From an uncultured Curvibacter sp. (lineage in GTDB: Bacteria; Pseudomonadota; Gammaproteobacteria; Burkholderiales; Burkholderiaceae), in NCBI GenBank assembly GCA_946481355.1, contig CAMLNH010000146.1, positions 1 through 7,020 of the forward strand: a stretch of DNA of 7,020 nucleotides. The letters run 5' to 3'. Every line of letters begins with the position of its first letter. Within the stretch, counting starts at the first letter, position 1. Position numbers and translations under genes: made by a program. This document shows, piece by piece, positions 1 through 6,734 of the stretch. A model generated the notes under the pieces. It had not been told where the DNA came from, searched no databases, and was given only the letters and a program-made list of their open reading frames with translations.

Positions 1-433
1 ACACCGGCAGCACGGCCTTGCGCGAGGCGCTGGTCCAGCAGCCGAAGACGGCGGCCACCTTGTCGTTGATCAGCAGCTTCTTGGACTTCTCGGCAAAGGT
101 CGGCCAGTCGGAGGCGCCGTCTTCCTTGATCACCTTGATCTTGCGGCCCAGGATGCCGCCCATGGCGTTGATCTGGTCGATGGCCAGCTGCTCGGCCTGG
201 ATGGAGCCGGTCTCGGAAATCGCCATCGTGCCGGTGGAAGAGTGCAGCTGGCCCACGATGACCTCGGTGTCGGTGACGGCCAGCTTGGTGGTGTTCACGG
301 CCGAGGTCGGGGGCGCAGCGGCGTAGCCGACGCCGGGCAGGCCGACGACGCCGAGGGCGCCCAGGCCCTGCAGGACCTGGCGGCGCTGCAGGCCGCTGGC
401 CTGCGTGGAGGTGGGGGCGGGCGATTTCTTCAT
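1..433 (-). CDS. urtA: Urea ABC transporter substrate-binding protein UrtA, N-terminal part (runs off the left edge)
   Basis: This is the periplasmic ligand-binding subunit of a urea-type (branched-chain-amino-acid family) ABC transporter; it captures urea or a short amide and delivers it to the inner-membrane permease. Reading leftward from the ATG at 433, 144 complete codons are visible. The first 40 residues form a Tat-like signal: two arginines at residues 17-18 (QRRQVLQ), then a glycine/leucine-rich hydrophobic stretch ending near GYA at 36-38. The mature part begins with a beta strand containing [18 protein letters not shown], then [25 protein letters not shown] and [16 protein letters not shown]. 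The last two are highly characteristic of UrtA and its FmdD short-chain-amide relatives. The start is supported by an AGGAG at 440-444 (minus strand), 6 nt upstream. It is divergent from the hybrid-kinase operon. Urea versus formamide or acetamide specificity cannot be settled from this fragment; downstream urtBCDE would lie outside the window. Confidence 0.88.
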
Positions 434-538: not shown

Positions 539-556
539 ATACGTCAATCAACGTAT
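539..556. promoter_or_regulatory. Inverted repeat ATACGT-N6-ACGTAT, candidate response-regulator operator
   Basis: ATACGT (539-544) and ACGTAT (551-556) are perfect inverted 6-bp arms separated by CAATCA. Their centre lies about 88 bp upstream of the kinase start and about 115 bp upstream of the urtA start. An A/T-containing palindrome stands out in this G+C-rich spacer. NarL/FixJ-type (LuxR-HTH) regulators commonly bind short inverted repeats with TAC-type half-sites, and one such regulator is encoded at 4009-4920. Assigning the site to that protein is inference. No convincing -10/-35 pair was found for either divergent gene. Confidence 0.4.
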
Positions 557-635: not shown

Positions 636-3600
636 ATGAACACCGCACCGCAGCGCATCTTCCCGATCCGCCGCGACTACAACTCCTGGGTCGCCAACGA
701 GACCCTGGAGGACTACGCCCTGCGCTACACGCCGCGCAGTGCACGCAAATGGAGCGAGTGGCGCGTGGCCAACACTGCCTTCGGCGGCATGTCCTTCCTG
801 GCGCTGGAGGCCATCGGCGGCGCCATCGCGCTCAACTACGGTTTCGAGAACGCGCTCTGGGCCATCCTGGTCATGGGGCTCATCACCTTCCTCACGGGCC
901 TGCCCATCGCGGTCTATGCCGCGCGTTACGGCCTGGACATGGACCTGCTCACGCGCGGCGCGGGCTTCGGCTACCTCGGCTCCACCGTCACCTCGCTGAT
1001 CTATGCCAGCTTCACCTTCATCTTCTTCGCGCTGGAGGCGGCCATCATGGCCCTGGCACTGGAGATGGCCTTCGGCTGGCCCCTGGTGTGGTGCTACGTG
1101 CTGTCGTCGCTGGTCATCATTCCCATGGTGCTCTACGGCATCACCTTCATCTCGCGCCTGCAGGCCTGGACCCAGCCGGTGTGGATCGTGCTGCTGCTCT
1201 GGCCCTTCGTCTGGTTCGCCATCGCGCAGCCCCAGCTCTACCGCGAGTTCACGGGTCTGTCGGGGCTGACCTCGGGCAGCAGCGAGTTCGAGCCGCTGAT
1301 GTTCGGCGCCGCGGCCACCGTAGCCTTCTCGCTGGTGGTGCAGGTGGGCGAGCAGGTGGACTACCTGCGTTTCATGCCCGAGCGCACGCGCGCCAACCGC
1401 TGGCGCTGGTGGAGCTGCGTCATCGTCGCCGGCCCGGGCTGGATCTTCATGGGCATGCTCAAGATGCTGGCCGGCGCCTTCCTGGCCTTCGTCGCCCTGC
1501 AGTACGGCGCGCTGCCCAGCCACGCGGCCGAGCCCACGCAGATGTTCCTCGTGGGCTATATGCGCTCGCTCGACCATCCCTCGCTCGCGCTCTGGCTCAC
1601 GGTGATCTTCGTCATCATCTCCCAGGTCAAGATCAACGTCACCAACGCCTACGCCGGCTCGCTGGCCTGGAGCAACTTCTTCGCGCGCATCACGCGCAGC
1701 CATCCGGGGCGTGTGGTCTGGCTGGTGTTCAACGTCATCATCGCCATGCTGCTCATGACCCTGGGCGTCTTCGGCGCGCTCGAACATGTGCTGGGCCTCT
1801 ACGCCAACGTGGCCATCGCCTGGGTCGGCGCGCTGGTGGCCGACCTGGTCATCAACAAGCCCCTGGGCCTGAGCCCCAGGGGCGTGGAGTTCCGCCGTGC
1901 CTACCTCTACGACCTCAATCCCGTGGGCCTGGGCGCCATGGGCCTGGCCGCGGTGCTGGCCTGCGTGGCCTATGCGGGCCTGCTCGGCGTCTGGGCCGAG
2001 GCCTTCTCGCCCTTCATCGCACTCTTCACCGCCATGCTCACCGCGCCCCTGCTGGCCTGGGCCACGCAAGGGCGCTACTACCTGGCGCGGCGTGACCCCT
2101 CGCCCTGGCGGCCCGGTGAATCCGTGCGGTGCGGCGTCTGCAACAACCCCTTCGAGAGCGCTGACATGGCGCATTGCCCGGCCTACGGCGCGCCCATCTG
2201 CTCGCTGTGCTGTTCCCTCGAATCCCGCTGCCATGACCGCTGCAAGACCCAGTCGCGCGCCGGTGACCAGGTGCGCCAGGCCCTGGCCGCGGTGCTGCCG
2301 GCCAGCCTGAACAACCGCTTCAACTTCCGCGTCGCGCAGTACTTCACCGTCTTCCTGGGTCTTGCGGCGATCATGGCCTTTCTGCTGGGCGTGGTCTATG
2401 TGCAGGAGAGCCTGCAAGGGCAGGCCCATGCTGCAGCCCTGCGCCTGCCCTTCATCAAGGCCTTCTCGCTCATGGCCGTGCTGGCCGCCGTGTGTGCCTG
2501 GTGGGTGGTGCTGGCCACCGAAAGCCGGCGCATGGCCCACGACGAGTCCGAGCGCCAGACGCAATTGCTGCAGAAGGAAATCGACGCCCACCAGCGCACC
2601 GATGCGGCCCTGCAGAACGCCAAGGAGGTGGCCGAGAACGCCAGCAGCGCCAAGACCCGCTACGTGGCTGGCATGACGCACGAGCTGCGCACCCCGCTCA
2701 ACAGCATCCTGGGTTATGCGCAGATCCTGCTGCGCGGCCAGGAGCTCAAGGCCAGCGCGCGCGAGATGGTCACCACCATCCAGCAAAGCGGCCAGCACAT
2801 GCACGCACTCATCGACGGCCTGCTGGACCTGGCGCGCATCGAGGCCGGCCGCCTGCGTCTGGACCCGGCGCCGCTGCCCTTCCCCGACTTCCTCGACGAA
2901 CTCGTGCGCATGGTGCAGCCCCAAGCCGAGGGCAAGGGCCTGTCCTTCCGGCTGGAGACCCAGGGCCGCGTGCCGGCCTGGGTGCAGGCCGACGCCAAGC
3001 GCCTGCGCCAGATCCTCATCAACCTGCTGGGCAATGCGGTGCGCTTCACGGACCGTGGTGGCATCGTCTTCCGTGTGGACTGCCGGCACGAGGTGCTGCG
3101 CTTCGAGGTGGAAGACACCGGCATCGGCATCGCCCCGCAGGACCAGGAGCGCATCTTCATGCCCTTCGAGCGCGGCAGCGCCGGCCGGCGCACCAGCGAG
3201 GCCGGCACCGGCCTGGGCCTGGCCATCACCCATCTGCTGACCGAACTCATGGGCGGCGAGCTCACCCTGCGCAGCGAGGTGGGGCAGGGCAGCACCTTCA
3301 CCATCCGCCTCTACCTGCGCGAGATCGAGGCCCCGGCCCAGCGCTCCGTGCGCAACCTGCGGCCCATCGTGGGTTACCTCGCGCCGCGCCGCGCGCTGCT
3401 GGTGGTGGACGACCAGCCCATCCAGCGCCAGCTGCTGGCCAGCCTGCTGCTGCCGCTGGGCTTTGCCATCCGCGAGGCTGCCAGCGGCCGTGAGGCGCTG
3501 GAGACCGTGCAGCGCGAGCGGCCCGATGCCGTGCTGCTGGACATCAACATGGACGACCTCAACGGCTGGCAGACCGCGCAACTCATGCGTGCCACGGCCG

Positions 3601-4016
3601 GTCCCGGCCTGCCCATCATCTTCGTCTCGGCCGATCCCTTCGAGAACCGGCCCGAGCTCCTGACCGCCGTGGGAGCGCAGGGCTTCGTGAGCAAGCCCGT
3701 GATCGAGTCCGAACTGCTGGACCTGCTCGCGCGCGTGCTGCAGCTGGAATGGGTACACGAAGCCCACCCCGCCGCCGTGGCCGGCAACGGTGCGGCGCGC
3801 GACAACGCCGCGCCCCTGCCGCTGGCCGAAGACCTGCGCGAACGGCTCGTGACCCTGGCCCGCCTGGGCAATGCCAGCGGCCTGCGCTCCTTGCTGCGCG
3901 AGAGTGCGCAGGACGAGCCCGCCATGGCCGACGTGCTGCAGAGCTTGGTGGTGCACGTGGACCGTTTCGACTTCAACGCCCTGATCGCCCGACTGAAGGT
4001 GGACATCGATGACTGA
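636..4016 (+). CDS. Hybrid sensor histidine kinase with an NCS1 permease-like N-terminal sensor and C-terminal receiver
   Basis: Inner-membrane hybrid kinase of 1126 residues. Residues ~10-480 form a complete NCS1 (nucleobase:cation symporter-1, CodB-like) domain, opening with SWVANETLEDYALRYTPRS and showing about 12 hydrophobic helices; the KINVTNAYAGSLAWSNF helix (332-348) carries polar residues where NCS1 carriers bind substrate. A cytosolic cluster of eight cysteines follows (499, 502, 514, 522, 525, 526, 532, 536). Two further membrane helices come next (~569-590 and ~609-628), then a charged coiled-coil linker (~629-671). HisKA has phospho-accepting His682 in MTHELRTPLN. The HATPase has its N-box at 796-804, EDTGIGI at 826-832 and GTGLGLA at 857-863. 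The receiver (~921-1037) has DD 925-926, phospho-Asp969, Ser998 and Lys1020. An ~85-residue helical tail follows, without a recognisable HPt histidine motif. The start at 636 is preceded by GAGG at 625-628; an in-frame ATG at 570 lacks a ribosome site. The gene overlaps the next by 8 nt. Whether the carrier domain still transports is unknown. Confidence 0.93.
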   Translation: MNTAPQRIFPIRRDYNSWVANETLEDYALRYTPRSARKWSEWRVANTAFGGMSFLALEAIGGAIALNYGFENALWAILVMGLITFLTGLPIAVYAARYGLDMDLLTRGAGFGYLGSTVTSLIYASFTFIFFALEAAIMALALEMAFGWPLVWCYVLSSLVIIPMVLYGITFISRLQAWTQPVWIVLLLWPFVWFAIAQPQLYREFTGLSGLTSGSSEFEPLMFGAAATVAFSLVVQVGEQVDYLRFMPERTRANRWRWWSCVIVAGPGWIFMGMLKMLAGAFLAFVALQYGALPSHAAEPTQMFLVGYMRSLDHPSLALWLTVIFVIISQVKINVTNAYAGSLAWSNFFARITRSHPGRVVWLVFNVIIAMLLMTLGVFGALEHVLGLYANVAIAWVGALVADLVINKPLGLSPRGVEFRRAYLYDLNPVGLGAMGLAAVLACVAYAGLLGVWAEAFSPFIALFTAMLTAPLLAWATQGRYYLARRDPSPWRPGESVRCGVCNNPFESADMAHCPAYGAPICSLCCSLESRCHDRCKTQSRAGDQVRQALAAVLPASLNNRFNFRVAQYFTVFLGLAAIMAFLLGVVYVQESLQGQAHAAALRLPFIKAFSLMAVLAAVCAWWVVLATESRRMAHDESERQTQLLQKEIDAHQRTDAALQNAKEVAENASSAKTRYVAGMTHELRTPLNSILGYAQILLRGQELKASAREMVTTIQQSGQHMHALIDGLLDLARIEAGRLRLDPAPLPFPDFLDELVRMVQPQAEGKGLSFRLETQGRVPAWVQADAKRLRQILINLLGNAVRFTDRGGIVFRVDCRHEVLRFEVEDTGIGIAPQDQERIFMPFERGSAGRRTSEAGTGLGLAITHLLTELMGGELTLRSEVGQGSTFTIRLYLREIEAPAQRSVRNLRPIVGYLAPRRALLVVDDQPIQRQLLASLLLPLGFAIREAASGREALETVQRERPDAVLLDINMDDLNGWQTAQLMRATAGPGLPIIFVSADPFENRPELLTAVGAQGFVSKPVIESELLDLLARVLQLEWVHEAHPAAVAGNGAARDNAAPLPLAEDLRERLVTLARLGNASGLRSLLRESAQDEPAMADVLQSLVVHVDRFDFNALIARLKVDIDD
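2130..2243 (+). other. Eight-cysteine (putative zinc or redox) module within the hybrid kinase
   Basis: Residues 499-536 of the kinase follow the pattern CxxC-x11-C-x7-CxxCC-x5-C-x3-C, including CPAYGAPICSLCCS. It sits between the last NCS1 helix and the pair of helices before the kinase core, and should be cytoplasmic given the usual inward N- and C-termini of NCS1 carriers. The spacing resembles zinc-ribbon or cross-brace metal sites, but an iron-sulfur or thiol-redox role is also possible. Metal binding is inference; the cysteine pattern is read directly. Confidence 0.6.
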
Positions 4017-4993: not shown

Positions 4994-5407
4994 ATGTTCA
5001 GAGTCAGATCAATGCTGGCCTTGCTGGTCATGCCTTTGTGTGGCTTCACTTGTGTTTCGATTTCTTCGCTGACGGTAAAGACCGCTCCATCTGATATTGG
5101 GTATGCGTCGATCGAGTCCTTGGCTGCTGACTTCAATCAAGTGTCCAGAGCCGTGGGGGACTGGGCAAGACAGAACCAGTTTGTCGAGCAGGTGTGCAGC
5201 TCTGGCTCGAGGGGGTATACGCCGCTTTGCAGGGATTTTGTTGACCTGAATTCGGTCAGGGTCACCGTGGCATTTGCCCCTTCTTCCAATCTCACCAATA
5301 TCACGATCACAGATTGGTCGAATGGGAAATATCTCTCCAAAGTCAGCCTGTCGCTCAAAGACCATCTGTCCCGGGCGCTGCCGTCCTTGATCATCAAGGA
5401 CGATTAG
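4994..5407 (+). CDS. Small exported protein of unknown function (137 aa)
   Basis: I do not recognise this family. The protein starts with a short basic segment (RVR) and a hydrophobic stretch MLALLVMPLCGFTC, which looks like a signal peptide. Cys20 could be an acylation site, but GFTC is a poor lipobox, so a secreted protein or an atypical lipoprotein are both possible. The mature part has cysteines at 68 and 79 that could form a disulfide, a strand-rich section (VRVTVAFAPSSNLTNITITDW), and a helix near the end. The ATG at 4994 is chosen because GGGAGGG lies at 4981-4987, 6 nt upstream; longer in-frame starts would run back into the regulator gene. Base composition is clearly lower in G+C than the genes to the left (hand count 24 of 60 at 5281-5340 against 44 of 60 at 4381-4440), so it may be acquired or fast-evolving. 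It ends about 50 bp before the riboswitch promoter. Confidence 0.72.
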   Translation: MFRVRSMLALLVMPLCGFTCVSISSLTVKTAPSDIGYASIESLAADFNQVSRAVGDWARQNQFVEQVCSSGSRGYTPLCRDFVDLNSVRVTVAFAPSSNLTNITITDWSNGKYLSKVSLSLKDHLSRALPSLIIKDD

Positions 5408-5471: not shown

Positions 5472-5491
5472 GTCGGCCCCCACGGGCCGAC
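5472..5491 (+). other. Perfect 8-bp hairpin immediately upstream of the FMN aptamer
   Basis: GTCGGCCC (5472-5479) and GGGCCGAC (5484-5491) can form an 8-bp stem with a four-base loop. It lies at the predicted transcription start and ends just before the aptamer P1 stem. Because no T-tract follows, an intrinsic terminator for the upstream gene is less likely than a 5'-end hairpin of the riboswitch RNA, which could protect or insulate the leader. The stem is seen directly; the role is inference. Confidence 0.45.
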
Positions 5492-5492
5492 A

Positions 5493-5647
5493 GCGTTCTC
5501 AGGGCGGGGCGGAATTCCCCACCGGCGGTATCTGCAGGCGACTGCAGCAGCCCGCGAGCGCCCGGCACAGGCCCTGGTCTGTATCGGGGTCAGCAGATCT
5601 GGTGCGAAGCCAGAGCCGACGGTCACAGTCCGGATGAAAGAGATCGC
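5493..5647 (+). ncRNA. FMN riboswitch (RFN element)
   Basis: A cis-acting mRNA aptamer that binds flavin mononucleotide and lowers expression of the gene downstream when flavin is plentiful. The conserved RFN blocks appear in order: GTTCTCAGGGCGGGGCGGAA, TTCCCCACCGGCGGTA, AGCCCGCGAGCG, GGTCAGCAGATCTGGTG, AGCCGACGGTCACAGTCCGG and ATGAAAGAG. The closing P1 helix is GCGTTCTC (5493-5500) with GAGATCGC (5640-5647), leaving one U-U mismatch. The variable region around 5541-5587 is typical of the class. The only gene following on the same strand is ribH2, 85 nt downstream of the aptamer. Confidence 0.96.
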
Positions 5648-5660
5648 GACTCCCGGCGTC

Positions 5661-5732: not shown

Positions 5733-6230
5733 ATGAATCAGACCCTTGAAACTTCCCCCACCACCTCGGGCGCCCCGCGCCCTTCCGTACCCCGCGTGGC
5801 ACTCATCGCCGCAGGCTGGCACCGCGACATCGTGGCCAGCGGCACCGCAGCCATTCGCGCCGAGTTCGAGCGTCATCACTGGGCGCCTGATCAGATCGAC
5901 TTGTTCGAGGTGTCCGGGGCTTTCGAAATCCCTCTGCACGCGCGGCGCCTGGCACGCAGCGGCCGCTACAGCGCCCTCATCGCCTGCGGTCTGGTCGTCA
6001 ACGGCGGCATCTACCGCCACGAGTTCGTGACTTCGGCTGTGATTGACGGGCTCATGCGTGTGCAGCTGGAGACGGACACGCCCGTGTTCTCCATGGTGCT
6101 GACGCCACGTGATTTCCACGAGCATGAGGAGCACTTGCGCTTCTTCAGGGAGCACTTCGTGAAGAAGGGCACGGAGGCGGCGCGGGCCTGCCTGGAGACA
6201 CTGGCGAGTCTGGAGGCTTTGCCGGCTTGA
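5733..6230 (+). CDS. ribH2: 6,7-dimethyl-8-ribityllumazine synthase, type II (RibH2)
   Basis: A cytoplasmic enzyme of riboflavin biosynthesis. It condenses 5-amino-6-ribitylamino-uracil with 3,4-dihydroxy-2-butanone 4-phosphate to give the lumazine precursor of riboflavin. The 165-residue length is near that of the family. Family signs are the N-terminal strand RVALIAAGWHRDIV, the substrate-loop GAFEIPLHA (from residue 62), and the active-site segment GGIYRHEFVTSAVIDGLMRVQ, with the likely catalytic His96. TPRDFHEHEEHLRFFREHF followed by VKKGTEAA matches the RibH2 branch (decameric in Brucella and Mesorhizobium) better than the usual RibH1. The ATG at 5733 is chosen because the protein aligns from there and an earlier in-frame ATG at 5634 lies inside the riboswitch aptamer. 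The ribosome site is weak (GGA at 5723-5725), which suits riboswitch control. It stands alone, not in a rib operon, so a second, housekeeping ribH elsewhere is likely. Confidence 0.93.
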   Translation: MNQTLETSPTTSGAPRPSVPRVALIAAGWHRDIVASGTAAIRAEFERHHWAPDQIDLFEVSGAFEIPLHARRLARSGRYSALIACGLVVNGGIYRHEFVTSAVIDGLMRVQLETDTPVFSMVLTPRDFHEHEEHLRFFREHFVKKGTEAARACLETLASLEALPA

Positions 6231-6290: not shown

Positions 6291-6734
6291 ATGCGCAATT
6301 GTTCCGCGCGCGGTGTTTGGGTATTTGTCGCGAGCGTATTCCTGTCCATGCTGCTGGTTGCCTGCGTCGTAGTTCCCATGCCGCACGACGACTGGCACAC
6401 CGGGCAGCATCGTGGTGCGGTACGCGATGGCGCGACAGGCCTTCCTATTTCTGGCGCCCGGGTTACGCTTGAATCTGCGAGATCGCCGGCCCACACGGCA
6501 TCGGCGCAGTCTCTATCAGATGGCACTTTTGAAGTTGGCCCGGTCGTTGAGCGCGAAGTCTTCTACCTGGTATGGCTGGGACCAGCAGAAGGTGAATGTG
6601 CGGATTTCCTGACTGTGAGCCATCCTGGTTACGAGTCTGTGAAGATCAACTGGCGTGTATTCACCTCGGCTACAGGCGGCTTGTGTCGAAATGAAAGAGG
6701 GCACCACGATGTTCGGATGATGAAGAAGCGCTAG
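6291..6734 (+). CDS. Small lipoprotein with a carboxypeptidase-regulatory-like (Ig/transthyretin-type) domain
   Basis: A 147-residue protein predicted to be attached to a membrane by lipid at Cys25. The signal peptide VWVFVASVFLSMLL leads into a canonical lipobox LVAC at 22-25. The mature part contains HRGAVRDGATGLPISGARVTL, then SLSDGTFEVGPV and FLTVSHPGYESVKI. This order (G-x-V-x-D-x-x-T-G-x-P-I-x-G-A-x-V, a DGTFEV strand, then a PGY strand) is typical of the CarboxypepD_reg-like seven-strand beta sandwich. Such domains are usually structural or binding modules, so no enzymatic role is proposed. The start has a strong GGGAGGG at 6276-6282, 8 nt upstream. Composition is more A+T-rich than ribH2 or the kinase. 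The physiological role is unknown. Confidence 0.78.
   Translation: MRNCSARGVWVFVASVFLSMLLVACVVVPMPHDDWHTGQHRGAVRDGATGLPISGARVTLESARSPAHTASAQSLSDGTFEVGPVVEREVFYLVWLGPAEGECADFLTVSHPGYESVKINWRVFTSATGGLCRNERGHHDVRMMKKR

Follow-up and report, generated by a model that had tools for sequence, protein, structure and literature searches.

An NCS1-type carrier fused to a hybrid histidine kinase, encoded beside urea and amide genes in Curvibacter

Results

A stretch of 7,020 nucleotides from an uncultured Curvibacter sp. (contig CAMLNH010000146.1 of assembly GCA_946481355.1, hereafter the window) carries a gene for a hybrid histidine kinase whose N-terminal part is an NCS1-type carrier, and a response regulator gene that overlaps it by 8 nucleotides. 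The features of the locus are collected in Table 1. The kinase part has HisKA, HATPase_c and receiver (REC) domains together with their catalytic residues, as judged by conservation: H682, N800, D827 and G857 were unchanged in all 139 fused sequences, and D969 was present in 137, the remaining two having gaps. A sequence-only reading of the same DNA had described a whole NCS1 permease fused to a hybrid kinase, and this observation was partly confirmed overall. Structure, profile comparison and bridging relatives all speak for an NCS1-type carrier as the sensor part; the expected match to PF02133 was obtained only indirectly, and the proposed range of ligands was narrowed, as described below.

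Table 1. Features of the kinase locus, in positions of the window
Feature	Position	Strand	Basis
urtA-like gene start (urea ABC transporter substrate-binding protein), divergent, cut by window end	2..433	-	profile match
Palindrome ATACGT-CAATCA-ACGTAT, candidate regulator operator	539..556	.	between urtA-like gene and kinase
Hybrid histidine kinase, NCS1-type carrier N-terminal (1126 aa, P0001)	636..4016	+	translation, Pfam, homologs
Carrier domain of NCS1 fold with some 12 helices, residues 37-487	744..2096	+	structure model, structure matches, hhalign
Module of eight cysteines linking carrier to kinase, residues 499-536, putatively zinc-binding	2130..2243	+	conservation, co-occurrence, model
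Pair of additional predicted membrane helices (residues 564-634), before the pre-kinase segment	2325..2537	+	model
HisKA, phospho-acceptor H682	2649..2849	+	Pfam, conservation
HATPase_c	2991..3317	+	Pfam, conservation
Receiver domain, D969	3399..3725	+	Pfam, conservation
Partner response regulator, REC and LuxR-type helix-turn-helix	4009..4920	+	frame list, Pfam

When the model of the carrier was compared with known structures, it matched the CodB/Mhp1 fold. Direct sequence searches were less informative: PF02133 gave no match to the window protein at E≤0.1 and none to 38 relatives at E≤10, and a sequence search of the carrier against the PDB found nothing. By profile comparison with hhalign, the NCS1 profile scored Prob 99.2 (E 2.4e-19) and an Nramp profile 1.5. 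By composition, two of the 34 rows in the NCS1 profile and one in the Nramp profile look misread. A standalone relative of the carrier (locus L116), 29% identical to the window sensor, scored 36.4 bits to PF02133, above the cut-off of 23.5. At an equal depth of three sequences, the standalone-relative profile gave Prob 99.2 for NCS1 and 0.4 for SSS, whereas the sensor profile itself gave only 0.2 and 0.1, respectively. Because the sensor profile alone is near nil for both families, it is the standalone bridge that decides between them, and NCS1 ancestry is established to the extent that sequence comparison can do so. Of 82 relatives, 81 had a higher identity to the window in the carrier than in the kinase part; the remaining one, L061, is truncated.

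Residues of the CodB and Mhp1 substrate pockets, taken from excerpts of PMC9379551 and PMC13390362, were mapped onto the carrier by hhalign and multiple alignment, and conservation was counted in the 139 fused sequences, 14 standalone relatives and 33 NCS1 rows, the two rows of suspect composition being left out of these counts. The substrate-site residues of NCS1 have not all been lost, a loss that the sequence-only reading had named, together with a lack of ligand effect on the kinase, as an argument against carrier-type sensing. N334 aligns with CodB Asn280 and Mhp1 Asn314 and keeps the asparagine, R245 and Y339 correspond to the CodB Arg216-Tyr285 pair, both kept, and D242 to Asp213, also kept, while the position of CodB Trp108 is taken by F130, a phenylalanine in 127 of the 139. 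Both asparagines singled out by the sequence-only reading, 334 and 337, proved to be invariant in the fused sequences. In the NCS1 rows the corresponding residue was found at R245 in 33, at D242 in 31, at N334 in 23, at N337 in 22 and at Y339 in 18. The Asp-x-x-Arg of transmembrane helix 6 and the Asn of helix 8 that recur among the NCS1 rows are present in the sensors as well.

Other positions are replaced. T127 stands for CodB Gln105 and E134 at the position of Mhp1 Gln121, and the hydroxyls of the Na2 site, a feature of the Na+-coupled carriers only, are lost, K332 and I333 replacing Thr278 and Thr279, which serve as ligands of the sodium. L233 occupies the position of the second stacking aromatic, CodB Phe204, and is L or M in all 139 sequences. 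Loss of this aromatic in the sensors is uncertain, since hhalign places a gap there and the nearby F231 is F in 95 of the 139; the two methods align the break in transmembrane helix 6 differently.

The residues K332, N334, N337, Y339, R245, D242, Q236, E239 and Q240 were identical in all fused sequences, E134 was present in 138 (one gap) and E58 in 137 (two gaps). All 14 standalone relatives share D242, R245, N337 and a basic residue in the sodium site (R in 13, K in one at the K332 column), and have E (9) or Q (5) at the E134 column. None has E58, E239 or Q240; Q236 occurs in one, and seven are gapped there. As the basic residue is nearly absent from the NCS1 rows (one R, no K), it marks the subfamily by alignment, and E58, E239 and Q240, which do not occur in the standalone relatives, mark the sensors. 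CbrA, too, is reported to have a lysine (K196) in its Na2 region.

Related proteins number at least 8000 in public data. Some sources label members automatically as 'purine-cytosine permease-like', and thus the carrier-kinase layout is already annotated automatically. The window is similar to metagenome-assembled genomes (MAGs) of Hylemonella (97%) and Curvibacter (96%, best segment in each case). To avoid picking close relatives, we searched 398 Pseudomonadota genomes with the carrier profile. Matches were found in 54 genomes, and 52 of these held a fused kinase (58 in total); these counts are lower bounds, as up to three candidates per genome were scored. The 62 matches comprised 58 fused frames, one standalone carrier (G200), two pieces (G201) and a 54-residue fragment (G243). 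In a separate set, 127 sequences remained once identical ones had been merged, 125 fused and two standalone.

Some members depart from the layout of the window. L001 (16723-20280) and L003 (16880-20461) carry a second, diverged fused kinase downstream of the first, with 61% identity to the window's in the carrier and about 40% in the kinase; the L001 second copy clusters with urease-linked members in a quick tree. In L118 (7502-10183) and L119 (7666-10362) the carrier-kinase proteins have about 895 residues and no C-terminal receiver. A separate receiver-plus-kinase gene (6349-7695) comes after the carrier-kinase gene in L118, and the relay there seems to be split over more proteins.

The linker between carrier and kinase is distinctive. 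Each cysteine of its eight-cysteine (Cys8) module is conserved in 138-139 of the 139 fused sequences. A profile of the linker (residues 495-632) matched 55 of the 398 genomes, and 58 of its 61 matches lay inside fused kinases, the other three (G295, G123 and G111) being weak and partial. In one of these, a 623-residue frame (L221, G295:C6) matches only the later part of the profile (E 1e-7), and no fused kinase was found in that stretch. The module modelled in isolation had a pLDDT of 77. Searches of PDB sequences returned short zinc-finger fragments, Pfam returned Prok-RING_1 in 15 of 74 sequences at E≤1 (best 0.012), and the best PDB fold was an FmdE-type protein at E 0.38. On these results the fold may at best be called treble-clef or RING-like, and the module probably binds zinc. 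The Cys8 linker stands where the SLC5 kinases have STAC; STAC was not among the Pfam matches of the linker, in a library that may hold no STAC model.

Gene neighbourhoods were described by the presence, no more than 9 kb from the kinase, of urt genes, urease genes or a gene for an amidase (FmdA or AmiE). Such genes were present at 76 of 80 named loci; two exceptions, L009 and L030, had fewer than 300 bases upstream available. The phylum sample comprised 56 of the 58 fused kinases, the remaining two, in G001, being the L001 locus and its second copy. In this sample 54 of 56 had such genes, and the other two stood at contig ends: 35 had urt and amidase genes, seven urt and urease, seven urease only, three urt only, two amidase only and two none. 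By comparison, one of 40 control windows about 90-100 kb away in the sampled genomes held genes of these kinds. Flanking urtA-like genes were found for 45 of the 56, on the opposite strand in 43. Representatives exceeded the NCBIfam cut-offs for UrtA, UrtB, UrtC, UrtD, FmdA, aliphatic amidase, the FmdB type and urease alpha, and a full-length relative of the window's truncated urtA-like gene, in L002, also exceeds the UrtA cut-off. Among the 50 loci whose regulator clustered with that of the window, the regulator gene lay directly downstream of the kinase in 42.

Urease-linked members were spread over several separate clades in the quick-method tree, which has long outgroup branches and was used only to see how labels cluster. 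It follows that these kinases have apparently switched from one kind of cluster, amidase or urease, to the other, and that urea is what all the contexts have in common. The sequence-only reading had suggested a purine, pyrimidine, hydantoin, allantoin or urea-related solute. Only urea among these is suggested by the urea transport, formamidase/aliphatic amidase and urease genes. In L116 (8949-13984) the standalone NCS1-branch carrier adjoins genes for an AmiC/UrtA-like protein, an AmiR-like ANTAR regulator and a C-N hydrolase of two units, and together these may form an operon for the uptake of amides or nitriles.

The palindrome between the urtA-like gene and the kinase had no counterpart in 200 shuffles of the window. 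Its core, TACGT-N6-ACGTA, was found exactly in 78 of 134 upstream regions (five of the 139 had fewer than 300 bases and were left out) and in none of 40 control windows of 20 kb. With at most one mismatch it was present in 80 of 98 amidase-type regions. In eight genomes picked for an exact site before the kinase there were 14 sites, of which ten stood immediately in front of the fused kinase, one before fmdA, one before amiE and two elsewhere, against 24 sites for the same pattern read backward. The palindrome is likely the operator of the partner and is a candidate for that role, because the partner is LuxR-type and an inverted repeat serves CrbR likewise. The CrbR operator carries an ACTU motif in the excerpts of PMC5715377, and the palindrome here differs from the examples given there. 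Urease- or urt-linked L189-L194, L184, L077 and L080 lack TACGT-N6-ACGTA upstream, and their regulator may read another site; another palindrome shared among the urease-linked members without it was sought and not found. In L069, L071 and L079, also urease-linked, the palindrome is present within one mismatch.

The rest of the window holds an FMN riboswitch (RF00050, 102 bits, 5491-5649, plus strand) preceding a lumazine-synthase-like gene (5733-6230, NF009084). Two small predicted proteins are encoded on the plus strand, one (4994-5407) with no Pfam match and one (6291-6734) matching CarboxypepD_reg below its cut-off.

Discussion

We propose that a carrier turned receptor ('transceptor') heads a two-component system for urea and short-chain amides, and give this reading a probability of about 0.56. 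The carrier would bind a nitrogen compound from the periplasm or during its passage, and its alternating-access movement would be relayed through the Cys8 module, probably zinc-binding, and the two extra membrane helices to the kinase. Phosphate would then pass from H682, after autophosphorylation, to the internal D969 and, by a phosphotransfer step, to the LuxR-type regulator. By binding TACGT-N6-ACGTA, the regulator would activate its own gene pair and the divergently transcribed urt-fmd(-ami) operon; the urease operon would be its target in other clades. That ligand-driven movement of the carrier is relayed to the kinase is the economical reading of the layout. Of the observations behind this reading, the gene context and the palindrome are strong. 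Since the kinase almost always stands beside genes for urea and amide uptake and breakdown, it is probably the way in which these bacteria sense urea and small amides. We infer that urea is the ligand common to all contexts, with short amides added in the amidase type.

Several observations weigh against this reading. No Hpt domain was found in the Pfam scan of the window proteins. L073 and L074 have an upstream flank yet no urt, amidase or urease gene, and among the 18 urease-linked regions no more than 6 contain the palindrome, counting sites with up to one mismatch. A gene neighbourhood tells what is regulated, not what is sensed, and the invariant carboxylates E58, E134 and E239 on the pocket helices could also be suited to a cation, guanidinium or ammonium for example. 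In CbrA, according to excerpts of its literature, the carrier transports, and signalling can proceed without the SLC5 domain.

That precedent favours a different arrangement, in which the carrier is a genuine urea or amide permease and the kinase reads a cytoplasmic cue (nitrogen status or the imported compound), the two being loosely coupled as argued for CbrA. The residues shared with all 14 standalone, presumably transporting relatives fit this view. However, the same Pfam scan found no PAS or other cytoplasmic sensor domain, and the sensor-only E58, E239 and Q240 and the Cys module, present in 138-139 of 139, point to coupling of carrier and kinase. We consider the arrangement unlikely. 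The ligand might instead be a classical NCS1 substrate (nucleobase, hydantoin or allantoin), the main proposal of the sequence-only reading. The fold, the match of N334 and N337 to pocket asparagines and that of F130 to the stacking Trp108 would allow it, but this is improbable given the changes at Gln105, the Na2 threonines and, within the uncertainty of the alignment, Phe204, and given the urea and amide genes nearby. It is about as improbable, despite the frequent flanking urtA-like genes, that the carrier is a docking platform for ligand-loaded UrtA (or an AmiC-like protein) that carries the signal: L039, L040 and L053 have fmdA-fmdB, and L190, L191, L192 and L194 urease, with no urt genes in the fetched flanks, and the invariant residues lie in the membrane core, not on the surface alone. 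A metal or redox sensor working mainly through the Cys8 module, with the carrier as its membrane anchor, would explain the conserved cysteines and is very improbable, for conservation is higher in the carrier than in the kinase, the pocket residues are kept, and the gene context is one of nitrogen, not of metal or redox.

The transceptor reading has parallels. The SLC5/STAC kinases CbrA, CrbS and RpuS of Pseudomonas, Vibrio and Sinorhizobium likewise join a whole LeuT-fold carrier, a linker module and a histidine kinase and regulate use of the matching nutrient, and CrbS and RpuS have a LuxR-type partner, as here. They differ in carrier (SLC5 instead of NCS1) and in linker (the STAC four-helix bundle instead of the Cys8 module and two membrane helices). 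The sequence-only reading had likewise drawn the parallel to CbrA with another carrier family. AruS of P. aeruginosa was considered as a relative and dropped, as it has a small CHASE5 domain. Ks-Amt5 of Kuenenia is also a nutrient transporter repurposed as a fused-kinase receptor in nitrogen sensing; according to excerpts of PMC5764959, its carrier binds without efficient transport, and it differs in its Amt fold, the lack of a PAS, HAMP or STAC linker, its 679 residues and its ligand, ammonium. Among NCS1 transporters, MetT takes a non-heterocyclic guanidine compound and is probably proton-coupled, as given in excerpts of PMC13390362. CodB, Mhp1 and MetT have the fold in common with the carrier described here and CodB the four matching pocket residues, whereas the present carrier is beyond the reach of PF02133, has K332/I333 in place of the Na2 threonines, is fused to a kinase and has the sensor-only residues. 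Substrate control of amidase and urease genes is also exerted by cytoplasmic sensing proteins, AmiC/AmiR for amides and the AraC-type UreR; the control is alike, but here a membrane carrier kinase would exert it. No NCS1-kinase and no urea or amide two-component system was found in the open-licence PMC literature, and the term NCS1 does not occur in excerpts of the STAC and transceptor literature.

It seems to us an even chance that these proteins form a widespread, undescribed class of urea/amide receptors, in which an NCS1 subfamily with a basic sodium-site residue serves as receptor of a hybrid kinase and drives, through an operator that occurs almost nowhere else in the genome, a regulon of very few genes. 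The coupling would be made by a new Cys8 module confined, bar three weak partial matches, to this architecture in the 398 genomes. The known carrier-kinase fusions involve SLC5 and Amt, and NCS1 would be the third carrier family. The proposal offers a receptor for urea and formamide in the environment that can be tested, along with a matching operator. Standalone carriers and their sensor relatives offer a natural comparison for the change from transporter to receptor, and the system would be predicted to control urease and amidase genes in many environmental bacteria.

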